Below, piece by piece: positions 13,173 to 46,215 of a stretch of DNA of 46,500 nt. Position 1 is the first letter of the stretch, and every line of letters begins with the position of its first letter. Under the pieces are notes generated by a model. That model searched no databases, had not been told where the DNA came from, and saw only the letters and a program-made list of their open reading frames with translations. Origin of the DNA: a virus; IMG/VR virus record IMGVR_UViG_3300031952_005193, positions 1 to 46,500 of that record. One strand, given 5' to 3'. The position numbers and the translations under genes are program-made.

Positions 13173-13593
13173 TATCGCAATTTGCTGGAACTCTTTAAGG
13201 AGTATGCCACCCAAAGAATTTCCATCAATCACAGAATTGGAAGCTACCACCGCGATCCTTGAAACATTACAAGAGCCAATTCCAGAATTTGTAAAATCGG
13301 TTAAAGACGGAGATCAGATGACTGATGACATTGTTACCGGCAAAATAAAAAATGAAGAGATAGATAAAAAGAGAGCCGAGTATTTCAAAGAAAGTTCAAA
13401 ACTTGAATTAGAGAAAGGGCAGGAAGAAGTAACGGTAGGGTTTGAGAACGAGGAGTTTAACACTTTTTTTCAGCAATTTGAGAGATGGGGAAGGTTATGG
13501 TTTATAAAATTAGAGGTATTCTTGGAATTTAGAAAGGATATGTGTGCTACCAATTCAGCGCCAAATATAAAAGAAGAGGCGCAAAAAAAGTAA
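13144..13593 (+). CDS. hypothetical head-module protein
   Basis: A protein of 149 residues if it starts at the ATG at 13144, which has the A-rich leader usual here but overlaps the previous gene by 29 bases. The ATG at 13204 (MPPKEFPSITELEATT) avoids overlap and also has an AAGGAG one base upstream, too close to act normally. The body is acidic and helical (FVKSVKDGDQMTDDIVTGKI, KKRAEYFKESSKLELEKGQE) and ends with an aromatic segment FFQQFERWGRLWFIK. The function is unknown. A minor capsid or scaffold accessory would fit the position. Confidence 0.55.
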   Translation: MKLLKSKKVNIAICWNSLRSMPPKEFPSITELEATTAILETLQEPIPEFVKSVKDGDQMTDDIVTGKIKNEEIDKKRAEYFKESSKLELEKGQEEVTVGFENEEFNTFFQQFERWGRLWFIKLEVFLEFRKDMCATNSAPNIKEEAQKK

Positions 13594-13611
13594 ATTAACA
13601 ATTAAATTACG

Positions 13612-13707
13612 CAGAAGTCAGGGACTTCTACCTGTCCATCAGGAGGGGGTGGACAGATAGAAGTCCCCAGTCGGGACTTCTTCCGTAAGGGTGCGAGGAC
13701 TGCGCAC
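13612..13707 (+). ncRNA. structured leader element with competing stems
   Basis: This occupies the 137-base gap before the scaffold gene. The main hairpin pairs GGGACTTCTA (13621-13630) with TAGAAGTCCC (13658-13667), then CTGTCCA (13632-13638) with TGGACAG (13650-13656), around a loop containing AGGAGGGGG. The second arm TAGAAGTCCC can also pair with GGGACTTCT at 13673-13681 around a five-base loop. AGAAGTC at 13613-13619 can pair with GACTTCT in the first arm. CAGTC (13668-13672) and GTGCG (13691-13695) have crossing partners at 13698-13702 and 13703-13707. An AAAGGTC motif follows. Confidence 0.7.
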
Positions 13708-13714
13708 TTAAAAT

Positions 13715-13721
13715 AAAGGTC
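13715..13721 (+). promoter_or_regulatory. AAAGGTC motif, copy 3 (ends in T rather than G)
   Basis: The motif begins 16 bases before the ATG at 13731, directly downstream of the structured element. The remaining leader is TTAAAAATT. Confidence 0.5.
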
Positions 13722-13730
13722 TTAAAAATT

Positions 13731-14393
13731 ATGGCAGAAGAAAAAAAAGATCTAAAAGATGGTGGAGAAAAAACCACCAAAGAGGTTGATCTCTCTAAAA
13801 AGAAACCTACCGGCTCTGGAACTGGTGATCAAAAGCCAGAAGAAAAGGTAGAAGTTTCCAAGTCCGAGTTGGAACAACTCCGGAAAGATGCTGGGTTAAA
13901 GGAGAACTACCGTCAAGGTATTATCCGCATTAACAAAGCCAGAGGTCTAATCCTTCCGGGGTCAGAAACCGAAGAGCCGCCAACAAAGAAAGAAGAGGAA
14001 GAACTTGATGAGTTCGGCGAACCCATCAAGAAAAAGAAAACGGAAGAGTTCGTTACGAAAAAAGAACTCGCGAAAATGGAAGAAAAGAAGGCCATCGCAG
14101 AGGCGTGTAAGAATGACGAGATCGCCGAGAACTGGGTTGACATTGTGGTCTTTTATGTGCCGCCAAAGGACGCTTCCTACGAAACAAAGTTGGAAGCTAT
14201 CCAAAAAGCACACAAGCTATGGCGCGCAGATAAGGGCCTAACTGACAAACCAGCAGACGATCAAGGCAAGAAAGACACGGCCGAGCTGGCAGGCGATAAG
14301 GGATTAAACAAGGGCAAGGAAAAAACCGATCAGCAACCAGAGAAAAAATCTATCCTTCCAAAGAAGGAAAAGATGACTGATTGGTATAAGTAA
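13731..14393 (+). CDS. capsid scaffolding protein (putative)
   Basis: A 220-residue protein, extremely rich in Lys and Glu and low in hydrophobic residues. It looks mostly helical or disordered, as capsid scaffolds are. A central segment (about 40-70) reads SKSELEQLRKDAGLKENYRQ, a coiled-coil candidate; residues 90-125 are an E/K block. The C-terminal 30 residues are basic (KSILPKKEKMTDWYK), like the capsid-binding tails of phage scaffolds. It stands two genes before the major capsid protein, the usual scaffold position. There is no protease motif. Confidence 0.65.
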   Translation: MAEEKKDLKDGGEKTTKEVDLSKKKPTGSGTGDQKPEEKVEVSKSELEQLRKDAGLKENYRQGIIRINKARGLILPGSETEEPPTKKEEEELDEFGEPIKKKKTEEFVTKKELAKMEEKKAIAEACKNDEIAENWVDIVVFYVPPKDASYETKLEAIQKAHKLWRADKGLTDKPADDQGKKDTAELAGDKGLNKGKEKTDQQPEKKSILPKKEKMTDWYK

Positions 14394-14406: not shown

Positions 14407-14808
14407 ATGTTCACACCATTAAGATACGAATCAGGGAAGATGATGAAGTTGCCTTTGGCTATCAGTCAAACGATAGTTAAAGGGACTGCGTTGGTTTGGG
14501 CGAGTGGATACCTTTCAATAGGGACGACTACTTCTACCGATGTTCGTTTCGTTGCGATGGAAGATGTAACTACAAGTGCTTCAGAGCATACTGAAATCTT
14601 GGTTCTTCCAGTAGAAGGTGTTGAATTTGAAGTCGGGTGCGATGGCGTTGTTTCTATCGTTGATAGAGGCACATACGCCGATCTGGCCACAGGTGCTACG
14701 ATCAACCCCGATCTTTCAAGTTACGATGCTTTTTACATCAGCGAGATTGTCGGAACAGAGGAAGTTTCAACTACGGTGCGAGGACATTTTGTTCACGCTT
14801 TAGAATAA
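14407..14808 (+). CDS. head decoration protein (DUF2190-like)
   Basis: A 133-residue beta-rich protein immediately before the major capsid gene. The pattern is a glycine/threonine-rich barrel: ISQTIVKGTALVWASGYLSI, then DVRFVAMEDVTTSASEHTEI, and a C-terminal VGTEEVSTTVRGHFVHAL. This is the layout of small decoration or head-stabilising proteins placed next to capsid genes (DUF2190 and lambda gpD-like trimers). They bind outside the shell and reinforce it. Exact family membership is inferred from overall pattern and position. Confidence 0.7.
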   Translation: MFTPLRYESGKMMKLPLAISQTIVKGTALVWASGYLSIGTTTSTDVRFVAMEDVTTSASEHTEILVLPVEGVEFEVGCDGVVSIVDRGTYADLATGATINPDLSSYDAFYISEIVGTEEVSTTVRGHFVHALE

Positions 14809-14814
14809 ACACCT

Positions 14815-15780
14815 ATGATTACTAAAGAAGATTTTCCAGCGTTAACGGATGATTTACAAACCATCTTTAACGAGGTAGCGAAAACGAAAGTGGCGGAAAT
14901 GAAGGGGAACAAAATTTTCAATGTCTTTGACACCAACCGGTTGACATTTGATCACCTCATTCTTCACGGAATGAAAGGTGTTCAAGAGGTAGTTCCCGGT
15001 CAGGATTTGCCGAGCATAACATCAGAACAAGGAGATACAATCACTTGGACACAGCGATACTTTGGCGCAATCGCGCCGGTTACAAAGCAAATGAGGAAGT
15101 TTGATCTGTATAACCAGATTGAAACTCTCATTAAATCTTTGCCGGACGACGCGTTCAACAAAGTAGATCAAAGTTTAGCTGATGTTCTATTGTATGGTTG
15201 GGCCACCTCTTATACCGATGTTTATGGCAAAGCAGTATCCGCAGTTGGGCCAGACGCGGCTTGCCTATTTACAGCGAGCCACACCAACAACATCAACGCC
15301 ACCGTTTTCTCTAATGTAATCACGAGTAATCCGGTGCTATCGCGCGCCGCGATTGTAACCGCAAGAAGGTTAGGTTTGATTCATCAAGATCCTAATGGCA
15401 TAATCCGACCAGTCAACCTTGACACCATAGTCGTTGCCCCCTCTAATGAGGATTTGGTAGAAAGAATCCTGCTCTCAACCAGTATGTCAGGAACTGCCAA
15501 CAACGATATAAATCCGTTGAAAGGCAAGATTAAAAATGTCATCGTCTGGGAAAGATTGGAAACGCGATCCGATGCTACGGACACTTCAGCTTACTGGTTT
15601 ATGTTGGATTCCTCACAAGTTGGGGAAACACTAAACTGTCTGTTTTCTGAAAGACCGTCATTGGACGCGCCGGAAGAAGTTTATGAGAATAAAAACTGGG
15701 AGTATTCTCTTGATTTCTTCTATGCTTTAGGTATTGGTTATCCTGCTTACATCTTCGGTTCAAACGCTTCCGGTAGCTAA
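14815..15780 (+). CDS. major capsid protein, HK97 fold
   Basis: A 321-residue protein at the expected place after scaffold and decoration genes. The N-terminal helix (TKEDFPALTDDLQTIFNEVA) is followed by an E-loop-like region around LPSITSEQGDTITWTQRYFG, a long spine helix (FDLYNQIETLIKSLPDDAFN) and an A-domain ending near YWFMLDSSQVGETLNCLF with WEYSLDFFYALGIGYPAYIF. This end is reminiscent of the Mu gpT group of capsid proteins. Codons are somewhat richer in C and G than the surroundings, as for many highly expressed capsid genes. There is no maturation protease gene nearby. Confidence 0.88.
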   Translation: MITKEDFPALTDDLQTIFNEVAKTKVAEMKGNKIFNVFDTNRLTFDHLILHGMKGVQEVVPGQDLPSITSEQGDTITWTQRYFGAIAPVTKQMRKFDLYNQIETLIKSLPDDAFNKVDQSLADVLLYGWATSYTDVYGKAVSAVGPDAACLFTASHTNNINATVFSNVITSNPVLSRAAIVTARRLGLIHQDPNGIIRPVNLDTIVVAPSNEDLVERILLSTSMSGTANNDINPLKGKIKNVIVWERLETRSDATDTSAYWFMLDSSQVGETLNCLFSERPSLDAPEEVYENKNWEYSLDFFYALGIGYPAYIFGSNASGS

Positions 15781-18424: not shown

Positions 18425-18841
18425 ATGAAAATAGTGGCAGTTTCGGGCGGTTTTGATCCAGTTCATTTCGGGCATATCAGATATTTCCGATCGGCGAAAA
18501 AACTGGGAAAGGTTATCGTGATCTTAAATTCAGACAGGTTTTTGAAAAAGAAAAAAGGATTTGCCTTAATGCCTTATAAAGAAAGAAAAGAGATCTTGGA
18601 AGCGATCCGGTATGTAGATAAAGTGATTCCTTGCATAGATAGGGATCAGTCAGTTTCTAAAACATTGGCAAAGTTGAAACCGGACATTTTTGCCAAAGGT
18701 GGGGATAGAACAATCAAGAATATCCCTGAAAAAGATGTGTGCAAAAAGTTAAAAATTAAAATGAAATTTCTGGTGGGTGGAAAGAAAGTCCAATCATCAA
18801 CAAGATTATGCCAAAACTTAAAATCCTTTGGTCGTCAGTAA
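18425..18841 (+). CDS. cytidylyltransferase-like nucleotidyltransferase (TagD/RfaE-C type)
   Basis: A 138-residue nucleotidyltransferase of the HxGH family. The N-terminal strand and turn GGFDPVHFGHIRYFRSAKKL contain the H14-F-G-H17 signature for nucleotide binding. KGGDRTIKN near residue 94 and the SSTR motif near 126 complete the active site. Relatives make CDP-glycerol (TagD/GCT) or ADP-heptose (RfaE C-domain). It overlaps the next gene, a glycosyltransferase/methyltransferase fusion, by 34 bases, so it likely supplies an activated sugar or polyol for the same modification. Confidence 0.88.
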   Translation: MKIVAVSGGFDPVHFGHIRYFRSAKKLGKVIVILNSDRFLKKKKGFALMPYKERKEILEAIRYVDKVIPCIDRDQSVSKTLAKLKPDIFAKGGDRTIKNIPEKDVCKKLKIKMKFLVGGKKVQSSTRLCQNLKSFGRQ

Positions 18842-20667
18842 CCCCAACAATAGAATCAGGATACGGAAGAGTGAGTAGGGAAGTTGTAACGCGCTTGGTT
18901 GATCGTGGATATGATGTGATGTATCACGGTTATCAAACGATGGGAAAACTTCATACCATAAATGGCAAGATTAAAATGCTTGATTGCGGTGGTCCGGAAT
19001 ACGGAATGAATGTGCTTGGAAGATATTTTGAACAATATAAGAGAGATATTCTGATCACCCTTTATGACTTATGGGCCTTCTTTGGAAAAATAGAAAAGGT
19101 CAATGCGGCGTGGATACCTTACTTTCCGATAGATGCAGAACCGGTTTCAATCCCTCAATCAGATCCTCTGCGATATGCCTATAAAAGAATTTGTTTTTCA
19201 AAGTTTGCATTAAGGGAATTAAAAAAAGTCAACTTGGGTGCAGAGATAATTTATCACGGAGTTGACACCAAAATTTACAAACCATTCACGGAAGAAAAAA
19301 AGAAAGCGATCAGGAAGAAAACAGGGATTCCGGAAAATGCTTTCTTGGTAGGAACGAATGGCGCGAACACTTGGGATAGAAAAGATTTTCCGAGAATGAT
19401 CAGGATATTTGCAGAGTTCGTTAAAAAGAATAACGCCAAAGACGCATTGTTTTACCTTCACGCCAATCCAGACGGATTGGAAGGCAAGGCGTATTCTTTA
19501 ATTGAATTAGCCAAACTTTACGGTATTCCAAAACAGATGAGATATGCTCATCAAAAGAATCAGCTTTTTGATAGCGGTTTGGCGAAAATGTATAACACTT
19601 TAGATGTTTATCTTACGGCTTCAAGGGCCGAAGGTTGCGGATTGCCGATATTAGAGGCGCAGGCCTGCGGAGTGCCGGCAATCGTTCCAAACAATTCAGC
19701 GCAACCTGAATGGGTAGAAGGACACGGTTGGGTAGTTCCTTGTTCTGATCATATAGTTACTTTGACCACTCCTCTTCATAATAAATGGTATTTGATGGAT
19801 GTAGAGAAGGCGGTTGAGGCCCTGACAGAAGCGTATCAGAACAAAGAATTGCGCTTGAAATACGGAAAAGAAGCGAGAGAGGCAATGCTTCAATACGACT
19901 GGGATAAAATCGTTGACGAGCAATGGCTTCCGTTCCTTCAAAAAGTGGAAGAAGAAATCACTACCGGGATTGTCAAACAAGAGGCGGAAGGAAAAGTTTA
20001 TAATATGCGGATAAACAAGATTGATCGGACAGTAGTGTATATGGTCGTTATTTTTCAAGAGTATGGAAAATATCTGGATCTGACGAAAGACGATGTCTGG
20101 TTAGATGTCGGCGGCCATATTGGCACTTTCTCCATAGACACTTCGGACAAAGTTAAACAGATCTACACATTTGAACCAGAGTTGGGCAACTACGCCATTT
20201 TAGAGAAGAACATTGCCGAAAATAAAATAGAGAATGTTTTGATTTTTAATGAAGCGGTTGTCGGCAATGACGATCAGGAAAGAGAATTTCATTTGGACGA
20301 AAGCAGAAATACCGGTGGACATTCCTTCATTGCGGCCGAAGGCAAGAAAATAATAAAAGTGAAGTGCCGGAACATCAACGAGATTTTGAAAAGTTATAAC
20401 ATTAACAAGGTAAAAATGGACTGCGAAGGCGCAGAATACGAAATTATTAAATCAATGGATCTGACCAATATCAAGGAATTGATAATGGAGTTTCACTTCA
20501 ACCTTTTGGGATTGACGAAGTTTGAAGAACTGGTGGCCCTTTTAAGACAGAAATTTGAGGTAGTTCAGACAGACAAAGTGATCAATCCGTATGGTCAGGG
20601 TAAAATTTATTGTGGAAGTTCCAAGATTAAAAACAAAGGTCGTGAGGAACAAAAAATTATTAACTAA
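18808..20667 (+). CDS. glycosyltransferase (GT4-like) fused to FkbM methyltransferase
   Basis: A 619-residue two-domain enzyme. Residues 1-370 form a GT-B glycosyltransferase: TIESGYGRVSREVVTRLVDR at the N-terminus, and the donor-site region RAEGCGLPILEAQACGVPAI. Residues 405-600 form an FkbM-type SAM methyltransferase with LDVGGHIGTFS starting at L432, then FEPELGNYAILEKNI and a MDCEGAEYEII motif. Such fusions transfer a sugar and O-methylate it. Placed inside the virion gene block with a nucleotidyltransferase, it probably decorates a phage structural protein or alters host surface glycans. The start overlaps the nucleotidyltransferase gene. The last codons contain an AAAGGTCG copy. Confidence 0.9.
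   Translation: MPKLKILWSSVTPTIESGYGRVSREVVTRLVDRGYDVMYHGYQTMGKLHTINGKIKMLDCGGPEYGMNVLGRYFEQYKRDILITLYDLWAFFGKIEKVNAAWIPYFPIDAEPVSIPQSDPLRYAYKRICFSKFALRELKKVNLGAEIIYHGVDTKIYKPFTEEKKKAIRKKTGIPENAFLVGTNGANTWDRKDFPRMIRIFAEFVKKNNAKDALFYLHANPDGLEGKAYSLIELAKLYGIPKQMRYAHQKNQLFDSGLAKMYNTLDVYLTASRAEGCGLPILEAQACGVPAIVPNNSAQPEWVEGHGWVVPCSDHIVTLTTPLHNKWYLMDVEKAVEALTEAYQNKELRLKYGKEAREAMLQYDWDKIVDEQWLPFLQKVEEEITTGIVKQEAEGKVYNMRINKIDRTVVYMVVIFQEYGKYLDLTKDDVWLDVGGHIGTFSIDTSDKVKQIYTFEPELGNYAILEKNIAENKIENVLIFNEAVVGNDDQEREFHLDESRNTGGHSFIAAEGKKIIKVKCRNINEILKSYNINKVKMDCEGAEYEIIKSMDLTNIKELIMEFHFNLLGLTKFEELVALLRQKFEVVQTDKVINPYGQGKIYCGSSKIKNKGREEQKIIN
20635..20642 (+). promoter_or_regulatory. AAAGGTCG motif, copy 7, in the tail of a coding region
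   Basis: The motif lies within the last 33 bases of the glycosyltransferase-fusion gene and begins 47 bases before the ATG at 20682, the same distance as copy 6. Confidence 0.5.
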
Positions 20668-21889: not shown

Positions 21890-24298
21890 ATGCCAGAATC
21901 AATTACTCCAACACCAGAGATTTTAACCAAATACTCCGTAGTCAACGGAAAACTTTTGATGACTGCAAACGCAGATGTGAGAGATAAAATTGAAGTTGAA
22001 ATTGGTGATACCAAACAGGTTGATTTCTATCCGCAGGTCAAGATCCAAAGATGGGACAATGAGGTTAATTTTTCGGCAAGATTGAAAGAAACCGAAATAG
22101 GTTTGGCGACAATAAGTTTTGATAAAGACCATATCATCTGGAGAAAGGGAAAAATAGAATCCCATTTCTACAATCTAACAGAAGGCGAAGGCGGATATGA
22201 ATTTCAGGTTAATTTAAAAGAAGACCCACGACCAACTAAAACTGGAGATTACAAAATAGAATTTACCCTAAATACAAAAGGATTAGATTTCTTTTACCAG
22301 CCTCCTCTCATCCAAGAATACCAAAACGGCTATTCAGAGGAATTTAAAAAAGAGATAGTAGTTTCCGAAACCCAAGTCAAGGATTTAGATGGAAATGTTT
22401 TAGTGGAAAGACCCGAAAAATGGGTAGGAAGTTGGGTTGCTTATACTTCTGAAAATAAAATAAACTGGGTCGGTGGGAAAGTTTATGGAACTAACCAAAC
22501 AGGAGTATTTTTCAGACCGAAAATTATAGACGCAGAAGGAAAATGGGCTTGGGAAGAATTAAAAATAGAAAATGGAATTTTATCGGTAACTATTTCTCAA
22601 GATTTTTTAGATAAAGCGATCTATCCTATCAGACACGCCGCAGGGTTATTATTCGGATATGATACTGCTGGTGGAAGTAATGAGAGTCAGCATCCAAATG
22701 ATTGTATTGGTTCTTTATTTACGAGTCCCGCAGGAACTAATATCGTTTCTTCTTTATCATTTTATGGTTTTGGTAGTTCCTCTTCAGGAGTAAATCACGC
22801 AAAAGCACTTGTAGTATTACATAGCAACTTAACCATAATTGAAAACGGAACAGGGACAGAGACTGATCTAATTCTTGATTGGGCAACAAGAGATTGGATA
22901 CAGTGTGAATTTGATACTCATCCTGCTATATCTGCCTCTACCGATTATGTTTTAATGACTGTTCATACCAACGTAATGTCTCCGAATAGTATATATTATA
23001 ACACTGGTGATGCCGACCAAGGACACGGAGAGGCCGATAATAATTATGCTTCTCCTACTAATCCAACAGATATTACTCATTCAACCAAGAAATTCTCCAT
23101 TTACGCTACCTACATACCTTCAGAAATAACAACCTATACCAAAAAAACAACAGCAAGAACAAGGGTAAAAATAATAGGCACTTCTAAAACATTACAAAGT
23201 AGAGGCAAAATAAAAACGGCAGCTCTTTCAAAACTATTACAGATGAGAACAAAGATTGAGTATCTCCGGTCAGTTTTATGGCAAGCAAGATCAAGAGTAA
23301 AAACTGCTGATGTTATGAAAGAAATAACTTCAAAAGCAAGAGTTAAAAGTGTGGATCTCACAAGAAAGATTACTTCAAGGGGCAGAATTAAAACAGCAGA
23401 CCTCACAAATAAGATAACAGCACAAGCCAGAATGAAAACTGCTGGCGTGAACCAAATAATTCAAAGTAAAGCAAAAGTTAAAGCAGGGGTAATAACTAAA
23501 ATTTCAACAAGAGGAAGAGTAAAAACTCCGGATCTTATTACGAAAACAACTTCGCGAGCCAGAGTAAAAACTGCCGATTTAAGCAAGGCACTTCAATCAA
23601 AAAGCAGATTAAAGATAGCAGATATTATAGCACCAATCTTAACCAACAGAGCCAGAGTTTCAGGATTGACAGGTGATAAATATACACAGATCCGCGCTAA
23701 AGTAAAACGGTTAGGTATTTCTAAAATTCTTCCAGTAAGAGGTAGGATTAAAACCGCAGATCTTTCAGCGCAGATAACGACCAGAGGAAAGATTAAAACT
23801 ACGCAAGAAAAGAAAACGACTGCCAGAGCCAGAATAGAACAATCCAATCTTACGAAAGCCATTAGATCAAAAGCAAGAATAACTGGAACAAAATCTAAAA
23901 CATTAACAATAAGGGCCAGATTATACATACCTGATAGCCACCATCTCCTGTTAGGAAAGGCGAACATAGTTGATATAGGTAAAACTTATCTTTATCTGCC
24001 TGCAAGTGGAAGTTCAGAGAACATTCCGGTATCTTTTGAATGGTATATTCCATCAAACAGATGGGGAAATAATTTGAATTTTCAGTTGCAGATAGATAAA
24101 TCAGATGACACCTTCGCAGATTTGGAAGTAGAAAAAAGGTCGTATCAGGATTCTGGATTTGAGTATTGGAATGGATCAGCGTGGGTAACGTTTCCGACTT
24201 CCGGAGTGGCAAATTCTTACGCAGGAAATCTGGCCCGGTTCATTACCAACCTAACAAATGGGTTGAAGTATTGGCGAATTAGGGCCTTCGTAGGATAA
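21890..24298 (+). CDS. tail fibre-like protein with 16-residue basic repeats
   Basis: An 802-residue protein. Residues 1-255 are beta-rich and include GVFFRPKIIDAEGKWAWEEL and a DKAIYPIRHAAGLLFGY segment, a fibre-type domain. Residues 255-415 look like a carbohydrate-binding beta-sandwich. Residues about 418-678 are roughly sixteen tandem units near 16 residues long with the pattern R-x-R-(I/V)-K-T-A-D-L-T-K-x-I, for example SRARVKTADLSKALQ. The C-terminal 120 residues resemble an FN3-like domain (IPVSFEWYIPSNRWG, LKYWRIRAFVG). It probably forms part of the adsorption apparatus. The repeat is not one I know. Confidence 0.7.
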   Translation: MPESITPTPEILTKYSVVNGKLLMTANADVRDKIEVEIGDTKQVDFYPQVKIQRWDNEVNFSARLKETEIGLATISFDKDHIIWRKGKIESHFYNLTEGEGGYEFQVNLKEDPRPTKTGDYKIEFTLNTKGLDFFYQPPLIQEYQNGYSEEFKKEIVVSETQVKDLDGNVLVERPEKWVGSWVAYTSENKINWVGGKVYGTNQTGVFFRPKIIDAEGKWAWEELKIENGILSVTISQDFLDKAIYPIRHAAGLLFGYDTAGGSNESQHPNDCIGSLFTSPAGTNIVSSLSFYGFGSSSSGVNHAKALVVLHSNLTIIENGTGTETDLILDWATRDWIQCEFDTHPAISASTDYVLMTVHTNVMSPNSIYYNTGDADQGHGEADNNYASPTNPTDITHSTKKFSIYATYIPSEITTYTKKTTARTRVKIIGTSKTLQSRGKIKTAALSKLLQMRTKIEYLRSVLWQARSRVKTADVMKEITSKARVKSVDLTRKITSRGRIKTADLTNKITAQARMKTAGVNQIIQSKAKVKAGVITKISTRGRVKTPDLITKTTSRARVKTADLSKALQSKSRLKIADIIAPILTNRARVSGLTGDKYTQIRAKVKRLGISKILPVRGRIKTADLSAQITTRGKIKTTQEKKTTARARIEQSNLTKAIRSKARITGTKSKTLTIRARLYIPDSHHLLLGKANIVDIGKTYLYLPASGSSENIPVSFEWYIPSNRWGNNLNFQLQIDKSDDTFADLEVEKRSYQDSGFEYWNGSAWVTFPTSGVANSYAGNLARFITNLTNGLKYWRIRAFVG

Positions 24299-33159: not shown

Positions 33160-34266
33160 ATGAAAACATTACCAGACGGTAGAATCCAAGTAGAAAAAGG
33201 CGATACTCTTTATGGTATCTATGGGCCAAATTGGAAAGCGCTTTCCGGCTATACCGGTGATCCTACCAAATTACCAATAGGAACTATTTTACCTGCCAAA
33301 ACAGGTGGAACTGTGAAGGCAGGTACAGTAGTAAAAGAATCAGCGCCAGCTCCAGCACAAACTTCTACTGGCGGAGTAAATTGGACTGCTTATTATCAGG
33401 GTGTTTTAGCTAATCCAACAGCAACAGAATCGGCAAAGGCGGAAGCAAGACAAAAATTGGCAGCTATTACGCCTGTAAAGAAAGGAGAAGAAGGGAAAAA
33501 AGAAGAGGAAAAAGTTCCTGACTGGCTTGCCAGTAATGATTATTTCAAACAATTATCTCCTGACGATCAAACATACCTAATAAATTACTACAATATCCTG
33601 AAAGTCAACGATACCGAGAAACAGAATATCTTAAAGCAAGCATTTATAGACGCGCAAGCATCTGCCGATCCTTATTTTAAAGAAAAGATAAGAATGGCCC
33701 AAGACGAATTATTAAGGGCTTTGGGAGAGCAAAAAACTGATTTGGCATCAAAACAAAAAGATCTGACACAAAAGATTGAAGATATTAAAACTGATTTAGC
33801 CACCGGCACAGGAAGATTAAGTATAGATGAGCAGGCAGAATTGGCAAGGCAACAAAGGAACTACGAATACGAACTGGAAAATTTAAGAGAAACTGCCGCT
33901 ACATCCGGATTGACTTTTTCAAGCAGAAGGGCTTTGGCAGAAGGCAGGTTAGCTACTGAACAGACAGATATTGTAGAAAGCACCAAAAGATCTTTCCAAA
34001 GACAGATAGAAGATCTCCAAACAGCAGCAGCGAGAGGCGATAGGGATGCGCAGAATCTATTATCAGATTACGAAAGGATTTATGGCGAGAATGTTACGAA
34101 ATTAGGCAGGGCAACAGAAACATATTTAGGAACTACTGGTTTGCCTTCTGACTTGAAAGGATACCGACCATTGGGCGGAGTTGTTGGGACTTTGGAAGAA
34201 GAGAAATTGAAAGATATAACGCAAAGGGCCGAAGCATTAGCTAATTTAAGAAATCCATTTTTATAA
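33160..34266 (+). CDS. internal virion protein with LysM-like N-terminus
   Basis: A 368-residue protein. Residues 4-47, beginning LPDGRIQVEKGDTLYGIYGP and ending TILPAK, form a LysM-like or related small domain (K-G-D-T-L near the start). A Pro/Ala linker follows. Residues 145-330 are long helices rich in Glu, Gln, Arg and Ala (DLASKQKDLTQKIEDIKTDL), a coiled coil. The domain is repeated at the N-terminus of the next gene. Its position before the giant polyvalent gene suggests a co-ejected or core protein that may contact peptidoglycan on entry. Confidence 0.6.
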   Translation: MKTLPDGRIQVEKGDTLYGIYGPNWKALSGYTGDPTKLPIGTILPAKTGGTVKAGTVVKESAPAPAQTSTGGVNWTAYYQGVLANPTATESAKAEARQKLAAITPVKKGEEGKKEEEKVPDWLASNDYFKQLSPDDQTYLINYYNILKVNDTEKQNILKQAFIDAQASADPYFKEKIRMAQDELLRALGEQKTDLASKQKDLTQKIEDIKTDLATGTGRLSIDEQAELARQQRNYEYELENLRETAATSGLTFSSRRALAEGRLATEQTDIVESTKRSFQRQIEDLQTAAARGDRDAQNLLSDYERIYGENVTKLGRATETYLGTTGLPSDLKGYRPLGGVVGTLEEEKLKDITQRAEALANLRNPFL

Positions 34267-34270
34267 ACTT

Positions 34271-35236
34271 ATGGCAAAAATATTACCAGACGGTAGAATC
34301 CAAATAGAATTAGGCGATACTCTTTCCGCTATTTATGGATCAAATTGGAAAGAACTCTCCGGATATACCGGTGATCCAACAAAACTTCAACCCGGAACAA
34401 TTTTACCTGCTAAACCAGCCGGTTCTTTAGGTGGATCACTTACTGGGGAAACAGAGAAAACCTTACCAGTACCTACATTAGACAAATTATCAATGTTTCA
34501 AGATGTGTTGAGATTAGTTACCCAGAAAGCAGGGCAGGAAGCAAAAGTAGCAGGCGCGACAGCATTACCGGAAGGAATGTTAAAACCGGAACAGGTTTCA
34601 GGCGGAACTTTCGCAGATATTTTGAATATGGTCAGTCAACAAAAGACCAGAGGGATTTCAGAAATTTACAAAACTACAGTTGAATTGTTAGACAGGCAGC
34701 AACAGGAAGCCGATAGCCACTTAACAATGTTGATAAATACTGGCGCAATAGCAAATCTTGATGATGATACTTTAACTAAATTGGCGGAATCAACTCATAC
34801 CCCGATTGATTATTTGAAGGAAGTGAGAAAAGTCAAAAAGGAATCCGCAGTTGAAGAAGGATTATCTATTGAAGATGCTGCGACTTATGCTGATATGGTT
34901 TTAACTGGCCAGTTAGATCTAACCAGCGTTCCTTCGGGCGAAGGAATGAGAGCAGAAGTAGGAAGGATGTTATCGCAGGTTTATCAAAATCCGATCGCCA
35001 ACAGAATTGAAGTTTGGAAAGGAAAGAAAGAAAAGTTTTTAGAGGAAGGTGAAGAATCCGGCTACGCAGATCCCGGAACGAGAGAGGATCTCATTAGAGA
35101 AATCAAAAATGCTTTACAGGATTACAGCGTAGATGAAATTAAAGAAATGGTTTATGCTTTAGTGCCTGATGTTTGGGAATTTAATGTCCAAAGAAGGTGG
35201 AGAGCAAAAGCCGGAGTAACAATCATTAACGAATAA
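34271..35236 (+). CDS. internal virion protein, paralogous LysM-like N-terminus
   Basis: A 321-residue protein whose first 46 residues (ILPDGRIQIELGDTLSAIYG followed by SNWKELSGYTGDPTKL) closely match those of the preceding protein. The nucleotide sequence encoding LPDGRIQ is almost identical in both. The rest differs: helical, charged, with DTLTKLAESTHTPIDYLKEV and a C-terminal EIKEMVYALVPDVWEFNVQR. This suggests duplication of one targeting domain onto different bodies. It ends in a TAATATG junction with the giant gene. Confidence 0.6.
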   Translation: MAKILPDGRIQIELGDTLSAIYGSNWKELSGYTGDPTKLQPGTILPAKPAGSLGGSLTGETEKTLPVPTLDKLSMFQDVLRLVTQKAGQEAKVAGATALPEGMLKPEQVSGGTFADILNMVSQQKTRGISEIYKTTVELLDRQQQEADSHLTMLINTGAIANLDDDTLTKLAESTHTPIDYLKEVRKVKKESAVEEGLSIEDAATYADMVLTGQLDLTSVPSGEGMRAEVGRMLSQVYQNPIANRIEVWKGKKEKFLEEGEESGYADPGTREDLIREIKNALQDYSVDEIKEMVYALVPDVWEFNVQRRWRAKAGVTIINE

Positions 35237-42920: not shown

Positions 42921-42924
42921 ATGT

Positions 42925-43023
42925 TTATTTTACCATCAGCCAAACAAAGAAAAAATAAAGAATAACAGCTATACCGAAAGCTAATCTATCGTCCCATTTA
43001 TTTTGTTCCTTATTTTCTTTCAT
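42925..43023 (-). CDS. 32-residue membrane mini-protein, leaderless, opposite strand
   Basis: The only convincing minus-strand gene. It begins MKENKEQNKWDDRLA, a charged N-terminus, continues with one hydrophobic helix (FGIAVILYFFFVWLMV) and ends in Lys, a typical single-span topology. A good sigma70 promoter lies just upstream on the minus strand, and the expected transcript start falls on the ATG, so translation would be leaderless. It is transcribed towards the end of the giant gene. A short host-membrane effector, holin regulator or immunity peptide is possible. No homologue is known to me. Confidence 0.5.
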   Translation of the reverse strand: MKENKEQNKWDDRLAFGIAVILYFFFVWLMVK

Positions 43024-43029
43024 TTTTTA

Positions 43030-43059
43030 ATCATAATAACAATTACAACGAGTTGTCAA
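43030..43059 (-). promoter_or_regulatory. sigma70-type promoter on the minus strand
   Basis: Reading the minus strand, TTGACA at 43059-43054 is followed after 18 bases by TATGAT at 43035-43030. Six bases then precede the ATG at 43023. The -35 box matches perfectly and the -10 at five of six positions. An AAAGGTCG motif on the plus strand starts three bases away at 43062. Confidence 0.6.
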
Positions 43060-43061
43060 GG

Positions 43062-43069
43062 AAAGGTCG
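43062..43069 (+). promoter_or_regulatory. AAAGGTCG intergenic motif, copy 9
   Basis: The motif lies upstream of the structured leader of the endolysin gene, 121 bases before the ATG at 43183, and beside the minus-strand promoter. CATAAT at 43071-43076 could be a -10 box, but no well-spaced -35 is seen. Confidence 0.55.
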
Positions 43070-43081
43070 GCATAATAGTTC

Positions 43082-43166
43082 TTTTAAGGGGAGAGAAGGA
43101 ATCAGCATCACCCTCGTTAGCCAGAGGTGTATGAAAAACGGCTGTTATTTTCTTCTCTCCTTAAAA
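43082..43166 (+). ncRNA. long imperfect hairpin leader of the endolysin gene
   Basis: TTTTAAGGGGAGAGAAG (43082-43098) pairs with CTTCTCTCCTTAAAA (43152-43166) over 15 base pairs with a two-base bulge. Inside, CAGC (43103-43106) pairs with GCTG (43141-43144), and CACcCTC (43109-43115) with GAGGTG (43124-43129). It ends 16 bases before the endolysin ATG. It may control timing of lysis by masking the ribosome site or stabilising the mRNA. There is no terminator T run. Confidence 0.6.
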
Positions 43167-43182
43167 TAAAATTAAAAATAAT

Positions 43183-44229
43183 ATGATATTTTTCAAGAAG
43201 AAACCAAAAGTTAATATAGAAAGTTTAGGAGTAATTGACGATCCGAGATCTGAAGAGGAAAAGAAAAAAGATTATAAAGCAGAAGAAATTTTAGCTGCTT
43301 TTGCGCCTATTGAGTGGAAAGAAAAGCCGGAAGCGGAATGGCGAAAATATCCTGTTTTTTACCAAGACCAATCAAGCTCTTGTGTAATTCAAGCAGTCGC
43401 CAAAGCATTAGGAATTGAAAATTATTTGGAAGAAGGAAAATTTATTCATTTGTCTGCCAGAGATGGTTACACAAGAAGAATGAATTATCCGGATCAAGGA
43501 ATGTTTTTTTTAGACGCAATGAATATCGGCTACAAATTTGGTTTAACCATAGAACAACTAATACCATCTCAAGGTTTAGACGAAGCAGCAATGAATATCT
43601 CATCTGACAGAAGTCCTTTAACTGAAATGATAGCCAAGATTGTCAAAGGTGGTAATCACTTCTCTTTTTCGCCAGATATTGAGCAGATAGCTTCCATTGT
43701 TGAACCGACCGGGAAACCAGTTGTAATAGGAGTAAGGTTCGGACCTGATGAATGGTTCGGAAAGAAAATCCCTCAAATTTTGAATAGTCAAGGAATTTGG
43801 GGACACGGAATTTGCGTTACCAATACTACATTATATCAAGGTAAGAAAGCTCTGATTATAGAAGATAGCGCCTACTATGATCCAACTAATGAGGCAGTCA
43901 GGATAGTTACGGAAGATTGGTTTAAGGCAGGCAGGATAACTTGGTCAGGATATTATCAATTTCTGAAGAATGACGGACTACCAACAAGGCCCACTTACCA
44001 ATTTGTGAAAGATCTTAGATACGGAATGGTTAGCGATCCGGATGTTGTTAAATTACAAGAGTGTCTGGCTTATCTGAAGTTTTTTCCGAGTAGTGTAGAA
44101 TTTACCGGAAACTTCTTTGGAAGAACATTAAAAGCAGTAAAAGATTTCCAAGAAGCCAACGGTATCACGCCGGTATCGGGATTCGTCGGCCCGATCACCA
44201 GAAATAAATTAAACGAATTATTCGTCTAA
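43183..44229 (+). CDS. endolysin: papain-like cysteine peptidase with peptidoglycan-binding domain
   Basis: A 348-residue lysin. The catalytic domain (about 45-265) is papain-like: YQDQSSSC with oxyanion Q63 and C67, then WGHGICVTN with H208, then IIEDSAYYD with D228 as third residue. The C-terminal domain (282-348) is a PG_binding_1 module: DPDVVKLQECLAYLKFF, then FGRTLKAVKDFQEANGITPV and GFVGPITRNKLNEL. The wording of this module is typical of Parcubacteria cell-wall proteins. The catalytic domain would cut peptide cross-links. There is no signal peptide, so export would need the holin in the next gene. Confidence 0.85.
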   Translation: MIFFKKKPKVNIESLGVIDDPRSEEEKKKDYKAEEILAAFAPIEWKEKPEAEWRKYPVFYQDQSSSCVIQAVAKALGIENYLEEGKFIHLSARDGYTRRMNYPDQGMFFLDAMNIGYKFGLTIEQLIPSQGLDEAAMNISSDRSPLTEMIAKIVKGGNHFSFSPDIEQIASIVEPTGKPVVIGVRFGPDEWFGKKIPQILNSQGIWGHGICVTNTTLYQGKKALIIEDSAYYDPTNEAVRIVTEDWFKAGRITWSGYYQFLKNDGLPTRPTYQFVKDLRYGMVSDPDVVKLQECLAYLKFFPSSVEFTGNFFGRTLKAVKDFQEANGITPVSGFVGPITRNKLNELFV

Positions 44230-45282: not shown

Positions 45283-46215
45283 ATGAAATTTATAGAAGCT
45301 CTTAATAAATTCAACGAATGGAGAGAGTTTAAGGTCGGCAAAAGAACGGTAATGGGATATGATATATCCCTCCGGTATTTCTGCATCTTTGTAAAAAATG
45401 CCGAGATAGAAAGCATAAAATTGGAAGATTGCTTGGAATGGCTAAAATGGATAAGAGATTTGGGTTTTGCTGTAGCCACTTTGGAAAAGAAAGCCATTGC
45501 TCTTAAAAAATTCTTTGAATTTTGGTGGGAACAAGGAAAATTGGTTATCAATCCTTCTTTAATTCCGTTGCCGCCAAAGTGTTTTAAATTTCCAAGAGTA
45601 GCGAGTGAAGAAGATTATAAAAGGGTTTTAGCTGTTATCCCTCCTGACTCCGGATATTATTGGCACATTAGAAACCGGGCATTGATTACTTTACTATGGG
45701 ATAGCGCAGCAAGAATCGGAGAAGCACTTTCTTTAAATGTGCAGGACACAGATACAAAAAATCAGAAGGCAGAGATTCATACTGAAAAGACAAAAGGTTT
45801 TTTGCCTTTCAGACAAATTTTTTGGACTGAAGATACAAATAACAATATAATGAAATGGATTGAAAGAAGGAAAAAGGAATTAACAATGTGGAATTTAAAA
45901 GAAATCAAAGATCCGGATGCGCTTTTTGTTAGCATTCACGGCGGAAAGGGAAGCTGTATGGGTAAGTCAAACAGAATGGAAATGGCAGCCGTTACTGAAA
46001 TGATAAGGAAATACTCAAACAAAGCCGGATTGGAAAAACCCTTGAATCCTCACTCTATGAGGCATCATCGTGGCAGAGAGTTGGCGATGCAAGGCGCGAA
46101 TAATTCTGTGATCTCTTCTATTTTGGGACACGCAAACTTATCCAGTTCTTATCCCTACACTATACTTGCTGGAAAAGATTTGGAAAGCCAATTTAGGAAT
46201 TTTGTCGGGAAATAG
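45283..46215 (+). CDS. int: tyrosine recombinase / phage integrase
   Basis: A 310-residue integrase with a SAM-like N-terminal domain (residues 1-95) and a catalytic domain (110-310). The catalytic set is complete: R in SAARIGEAL, K in TEKTKG, H-x-x-R in HSMRHHRGREL, H in LGHANLSS, and the nucleophilic Tyr in YPYT about nine residues later. The enzyme would insert the phage at an att site, so the phage is probably temperate. It has its own leader with a strong SD 12 bases upstream. No paired att repeats can be identified in one window, and no excisionase is clear, although the small basic gene after it is a candidate. Confidence 0.95.
   Translation: MKFIEALNKFNEWREFKVGKRTVMGYDISLRYFCIFVKNAEIESIKLEDCLEWLKWIRDLGFAVATLEKKAIALKKFFEFWWEQGKLVINPSLIPLPPKCFKFPRVASEEDYKRVLAVIPPDSGYYWHIRNRALITLLWDSAARIGEALSLNVQDTDTKNQKAEIHTEKTKGFLPFRQIFWTEDTNNNIMKWIERRKKELTMWNLKEIKDPDALFVSIHGGKGSCMGKSNRMEMAAVTEMIRKYSNKAGLEKPLNPHSMRHHRGRELAMQGANNSVISSILGHANLSSSYPYTILAGKDLESQFRNFVGK

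Follow-up and report, generated by a model that had tools for sequence, protein, structure and literature searches.

Attenuators of the trp type are built from four arms, in which the pairing of arms 1.2 together with 3.4 competes with the pairing of arms 2.3, and the 3.4 hairpin acts as the terminator. At the level of translation, the leader of the T4 gene 32 mRNA carries an H-type pseudoknot followed by an A+U-rich UUAA(A) stretch near the start codon; this pseudoknot is a translational operator bound by gp32, and its distance to the start codon downstream is 67 nt (PMC3014915). In a 2010 review it was considered to be possibly the sole viral pseudoknot that autoregulates translation (PMC3014915). 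Compact pseudoknots with an A-rich loop, the 3' strand of which lies over the ribosome-binding position, are also found in the preQ1-I and SAM-II RNAs. In addition, Rfam contains the GP20-a RNA (RF02991), which is labelled cis-regulatory and lies upstream of phage GP20 genes. The ratio of scaffold to capsid protein must be right, and the P22 scaffold restricts its own synthesis; RNA control of scaffold synthesis is known in few phages.

In this study we analysed a stretch of viral DNA of 46,500 nucleotides (the window), in which an earlier note, made from the letters alone, had described competing stems in front of a scaffold gene and likened them to an attenuator or an RNA thermoswitch. The stems are real: they were located at 13613-13681, and all the strings named in the note are present, AGAAGTC occupying 13613-13619 and thus starting one position later than 13612. 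They lie between an ORF of 169 aa that ends at 13593 and an ORF of 220 aa that starts at 13731. A terminase gene (PHROGs phrog_2) and a gene for an SU10-like portal (Pfam, just under the cut-off) are found upstream of the leader, and the head genes follow it:

13731-14393, + strand: putative scaffold protein, 220 aa, named from its position between the portal and capsid genes
14407-14808, + strand: decoration-like protein, 133 aa, named from its position; one distant relative
14815-15780, + strand: major capsid protein (Pfam PF25209 Phage_capsid_4, E 1.4e-11)

The placement of the stems before the scaffold, decoration and capsid genes was therefore confirmed; the capsid protein was identified by its Pfam family, and the scaffold solely from where its gene lies and from its composition. 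The 220-aa protein matched no PHROGs or Pfam family; it is charged, with an acidic N-terminus, and has a conserved NY and a C-terminal WY (alignment A4). An integrase gene at 45283 suggests that the phage is temperate. Elsewhere in the window we noticed 45-nt (15-aa) repeats at 23286-23623 within a large gene (21890-24298), a 142-nt stretch of 82% identity common to two adjacent genes at 33160-35236, which is likely a duplication, and, amid the structural genes at 18425-20667, genes that by eye resemble a cytidylyltransferase and a glycosyltransferase-methyltransferase fusion.

The leader consists of two modules. The first one comprises the following elements:

13607-13611, + strand: 5' arm of the outer stem P0 (TTACG), pairing with 13684-13688 in the minimum free-energy fold
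13613-13619, + strand: arm 1 (AGAAGTC), pairing with arm 4 in the nested fold or with arm 2 in the alternative fold
13621-13630, + strand: arm 2 (GGGACTTCTA), pairing with arm 3 in the nested fold or with arm 1
13632-13656, + strand: middle hairpin of 9 bp with the 7-nt loop AGGAGGG (13641-13647), common to both folds
13658-13667, + strand: arm 3 (TAGAAGTCCC), pairing with arm 2, or with arm 4 in a terminator-like hairpin
13673-13681, + strand: arm 4 (GGGACTTCT), pairing with arm 1 or arm 3 and followed by TCCGTAA, without a U-tract
13684-13688, + strand: 3' arm of the outer stem P0 (CGTAA) in the minimum free-energy fold

As had been noticed earlier, arm 3 has alternative partners upstream (arm 2) and downstream (arm 4). 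The arms can be arranged in two ways, with 1.4 and 2.3 nested or with 1.2 and 3.4 side by side, and pairings 2.3 and 3.4 are mutually exclusive because positions 13659-13667 are common to both. The nested fold was calculated at -50.7 kcal/mol and the side-by-side fold (1.2, middle hairpin, 3.4) at -45.7 kcal/mol. The folding of the window leader was more stable than expected by chance (z = -4.3; 0 of 200 dinucleotide shuffles equally stable), and when the dinucleotides were shuffled 100 times, no shuffle combined a terminator-like hairpin with a competing upstream helix as strong as the one observed (p = 0.01, the lowest value that this comparison can give). In the equilibrium ensemble the nested fold prevailed from 4 to 70 °C, being about 5 kcal/mol ahead at 37 °C, and pairings 3.4 and 1.2 each stayed at or below about 1% over this range. 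When the growing chain was considered, the 1.2 hairpin was the best fold before arm 3 emerged and was replaced by 2.3 afterwards, which implies that the alternative fold may matter during transcription only. Since no run of U follows arm 4, termination in the window is doubtful and, judging from the sequence, has probably been weakened or lost. Two further candidates were dropped: a helix between CAGTC in the 3-4 linker and GACTG of the pseudoknot loop, which by eye is not kept in relatives, and a three-codon ORF after AGGAGG (GTG GAC AGA TAG), which is spaced too closely and is not conserved.

Relatives were collected by capsid-protein searches, which yielded first 38 and later 80 loci on viral contigs, as well as two on contigs of bacterial genomes; one of the latter belongs to a Ca. 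Staskawiczbacteria MAG, and the two genomes are about 0.9 and 0.7 Mb in size. The gene order is kept in the relatives, and the leader occupies the same gene boundary. After the removal of duplicates, 53 distinct leaders upstream of the scaffold position were compared. The window belongs to a clade of seven members (97% SH-aLRT); a whole-leader MAFFT alignment of this close clade misaligned the arms and was left out of the pair counts. Neither the DNA nor the capsid protein matched any annotated phage record, the scaffold protein as a query found no relative, and scans with exact patterns for more close relatives returned already known contigs or none. Among 379 genomes of the phylum to which the genome of locus L119 belongs, the L119 genome alone matched.

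The long hairpin is a feature of this gene boundary: a score of at least 36 was reached in 20 of the 53 scaffold leaders, compared with 3 of 90 other intergenic regions and 2 of 186 random stretches (Fisher 1e-7). In 21 of 52 leaders, above the shuffled expectation, a terminator-like hairpin used the 3' arm of the long hairpin as its own 5' arm, and in 15 of 52 an additional 5' strand was also complementary to the apical loop. Terminators with a U-tract were present in 11 of 53 scaffold leaders and in 11 of 401 other gene starts (p 5e-6), ten of the 11 being situated 64-82 nt before the AUG; they were directional, with 11 on the + strand and 3 on the - strand. Examples that combine such a terminator at the same place with a competing upstream stem are L050, L057, L065, L066, L071, L077, L101 and L109, and when the terminator hairpin was imposed on the folding of relatives, arms 1 and 2 paired with each other, as in the window. 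At equilibrium a single fold dominates in the window, and the alternate pairings recur in relatives. The likeness to an attenuator holds for the family, given the logic of arms 1 to 4, their constant place and the U-tract in about ten members, but not in full for the window, which has no U-tract. Helix energies for the four pairings were computed in nine leaders. With symmetric scoring, G-U pairs outnumbered A-C mismatches by 95:25 (p 8e-11), which indicates that the folding molecule is the + strand RNA.

Members of the window clade differ in what they have kept. The U-tract is present in L050, the one member of the clade that carries it, and is absent from the window, L041, L046, L048 and L051. 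In the close relative L048, pairings 1.4 and 2.3 are kept with changed letters and 3.4 is weak (-5.5 kcal/mol). L044 has lost the whole long hairpin and kept the pseudoknot described below, and therefore the two modules are separable. Going by sequence comparison, module 1 of the window looks like a terminator that has lost its U-tract and retained the long hairpin. In L053, L055, L058 and L061 the place of the U-tract, right after the terminator-like hairpin and before the pseudoknot, is taken by AAAGGTCG. The leaders upstream of the scaffold position in L062 and L063 are of a different sequence type, with AAGGAG close to the start, and they contain long hairpins that score 46 and 42.

The second module, which was absent from the earlier note, is an H-type pseudoknot at 13689-13723, directly after module 1:

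13689-13695, + strand: 5' strand of stem S1 (GGGTGCG), pairing with 13703-13709
13696-13701, + strand: 5' strand of stem S2 (AGGACT), within the S1 hairpin loop
13703-13709, + strand: 3' strand of S1 (CGCACTT)
13710-13717, + strand: A-rich loop L3 (AAAATAAA), more conserved in sequence than any other part of the leader
13718-13723, + strand: 3' strand of S2 (GGTCTT), ending 7 nt before the start codon and overlapping AAAGGTC at 13715-13721

A pseudoknot finder without a position limit favoured long hairpins and was replaced by one anchored at the start codon. The anchored finder was significant in 25 of 53 scaffold leaders and in 16 of 150 control starts (Fisher 9e-8), its shuffle p-values being somewhat inflated, as shown by the 16 of 150 control starts that pass 0.05. 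A stricter descriptor, the limits of which were set by eye after inspection of the data, fitted 27 of 53 scaffold starts and 4 of 629 other ORF starts in the same DNA; this contrast depends less on that tuning and on the choice of examples than the alignment statistics given below, and is the fairer test. About half of the 53 leaders have no recognisable pseudoknot. The 26 examples contained 23 different S1 and 24 different S2 stems, and in 17 of them the end of S2 lay 7-8 nt ahead of the start codon. For a plain MAFFT alignment, 19 rows were chosen as fitting, so that its statistics are partly circular; 74.5% of its cells were paired (55.9% when shuffled), covariation was 0.464 (0.186 when shuffled; 0 of 500 shuffles as high; slid controls at most 0.18), and both sides had changed in 11 of 13 pairs (6 of 7 in S1 and 5 of 6 in S2). 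No Shine-Dalgarno sequence was found at the place taken by the 3' strand of S2.

The motif copy that had been placed next to the stems is probably the AAAGGTC at 13715. The - strand of the window has no copy of this heptamer and the + strand has 18, often right after a stop codon (positions 503, 4080, 4191, 7540, 12830, 13715, 15885, 16292, 17951, 19095, 20635, 24135, 28481, 33120, 35514, 43062, 44963 and 45235), and the count for AAAGGTCG in related loci was 45:4. The motif may be a promoter or an RNA-processing signal. At 42921-43182 an intergenic hairpin (score 33) and a copy of AAAGGTCG precede the gene at 43183, whose product has a peptidoglycan-binding domain.

In comparison with the described systems, the four arms of module 1 pair as in trp-type attenuators, with 3.4 as the terminator in the relatives that carry a U-tract. 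However, pairing 1.4 is also available here and can act as a clamp on the 2.3 fold, and a leader peptide bearing regulatory codons was not recognised. There is no U-tract in the window, and the leader is situated between late phage genes and not before a biosynthetic operon. Module 2 resembles the T4 gene 32 element in being an H-type pseudoknot of a phage leader with an A+U-rich UUAA(A) near the start codon, but it ends 7-8 nt upstream of that codon, the regulated gene encodes a putative scaffold and not a ssDNA-binding protein, and both the sequence and the phages appear unrelated. The compact shape, the A-rich loop and the 3' strand over the ribosome-binding position are shared with preQ1-I and SAM-II; in contrast to these, the strand hidden here is not a Shine-Dalgarno sequence, the stems vary freely in sequence, and an invariant unpaired core resembling a ligand pocket is missing. 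The preQ1-I and SAM-II covariance models gave no match up to E 10 in the window leader and none at the gathering cut-off in the window and 18 loci. The same window and loci contained nothing from the whole of Rfam at gathering, and at E ≤ 10 the window leader had chance-level matches only. GP20-a RNA, which likewise is cis-regulatory and precedes a head gene in phages, was at chance level too (13.9 bits against a cut-off of 47.2, E 5.6). The most fitting classification of the leader is that of a new RNA family, in which two known kinds of control are joined.

Several other explanations of the structure were considered. Phages such as T7 use RNase III-type processing sites, and the hairpin could likewise be cut or block decay, with the pseudoknot protecting the 5' end of the head-gene mRNA. 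Such a processing site and mRNA end stabiliser would account for a hairpin that is long and nearly perfect (arms of 10 and 9 bp plus a 7-bp clamp), for its retention in L048, which has lost most of the alternative, and for AAAGGTCG rather than a U-tract after the hairpin in four relatives. It leaves unexplained the conserved competition by 3.4 and the U-tracts of about ten relatives, as well as the fact that in many of these the apical loop pairs with an additional 5' strand, and we regard it as possible but rather doubtful. The same-place terminators in about ten relatives could also mean an ordinary terminator between transcription units, in which case the long hairpin would have no regulatory meaning and the head genes would have their own downstream promoter. 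However, fewer than about 80 nt remain up to the AUG, this space is occupied by the pseudoknot, and no promoter was recognised between the terminator-like hairpin and the scaffold AUG in the window. An ordinary terminator would also have no need for the overlapping long upstream hairpin that is enriched here, which makes this explanation quite unlikely.

The nested inverted repeats are potential cruciforms too, and a DNA-level element (a cruciform, protein-binding inverted repeats, or a packaging or replication site) was therefore weighed. The ratio of G-U to A-C (95:25), the strand distribution of the U-tracts (11 on + against 3 on -) and the locking of the pseudoknot position to the start codon argue against it, and we consider it very improbable. 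The thermoswitch reading, together with that of a ribosome-binding switch in the purine-rich loop, started from the run AGGAGGGGG at 13641-13649. AGGAGGG does lie in the hairpin loop, but the remainder of the run is paired in the minimum free-energy fold, the purines are not conserved in the loops of relatives, and no start codon is found at normal spacing, the scaffold AUG being about 85 nt away. With the long hairpin, to which the thermal calculation applies, dominant at all temperatures calculated, a thermoswitch is not to be expected, and either switch is exceedingly improbable.

We find it fairly probable that the head-assembly genes have, at 13607-13730, a structured 5' leader of two modules, acting as RNA of the + strand, in which an ancestral conditional terminator and a translational pseudoknot tune the synthesis of scaffold and capsid protein. 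The arms and their conservation, the RNA strand, the covariation of the pseudoknot and its specificity for the scaffold start were established by computation. In module 1, four mutually complementary arms surround the middle hairpin; 2.3 clamped by 1.4 would give a single long hairpin, 1.2 plus 3.4 would give two hairpins, and 3.4 would be a terminator wherever a U-tract comes next. In many relatives transcription would then pass when the long hairpin forms and stop ahead of the head genes when the 3.4 hairpin forms. In the window, where the U-tract is gone, module 1 probably persists as a long hairpin serving as an mRNA end or a processing structure, with attenuation that would be weak at most.

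In module 2, the 3' strand of S2 would occupy the Shine-Dalgarno place, 7 nt before the scaffold AUG, and the folded pseudoknot should limit the loading of ribosomes. Its most likely role, we infer, is to set or control the translation of the scaffold gene, possibly by way of a bound phage protein; by analogy, free scaffold or capsid protein would be a natural candidate for the signal that triggers it. A more elaborate scheme, tentative and on the whole unlikely, is a two-step feedback device for capsid assembly in phages whose hosts would be ultrasmall (Patescibacteria-like): scaffold or capsid protein left unassembled would bind the pseudoknot and stop scaffold translation, and the competing stems would determine through termination if the head operon is transcribed at all.

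The leader is absent from Rfam and recurs in a diverse phage group without capsid-protein relatives among cultured-phage records, and it supplies exact base pairs to mutate in a reporter. As modelled here, it probably controls the amount of an assembly protein in a poorly known group of environmental phages. Since two relatives reside in MAGs with small genomes, one of them of Ca. Staskawiczbacteria, the leader may open up gene control in the viruses of a little-studied radiation.
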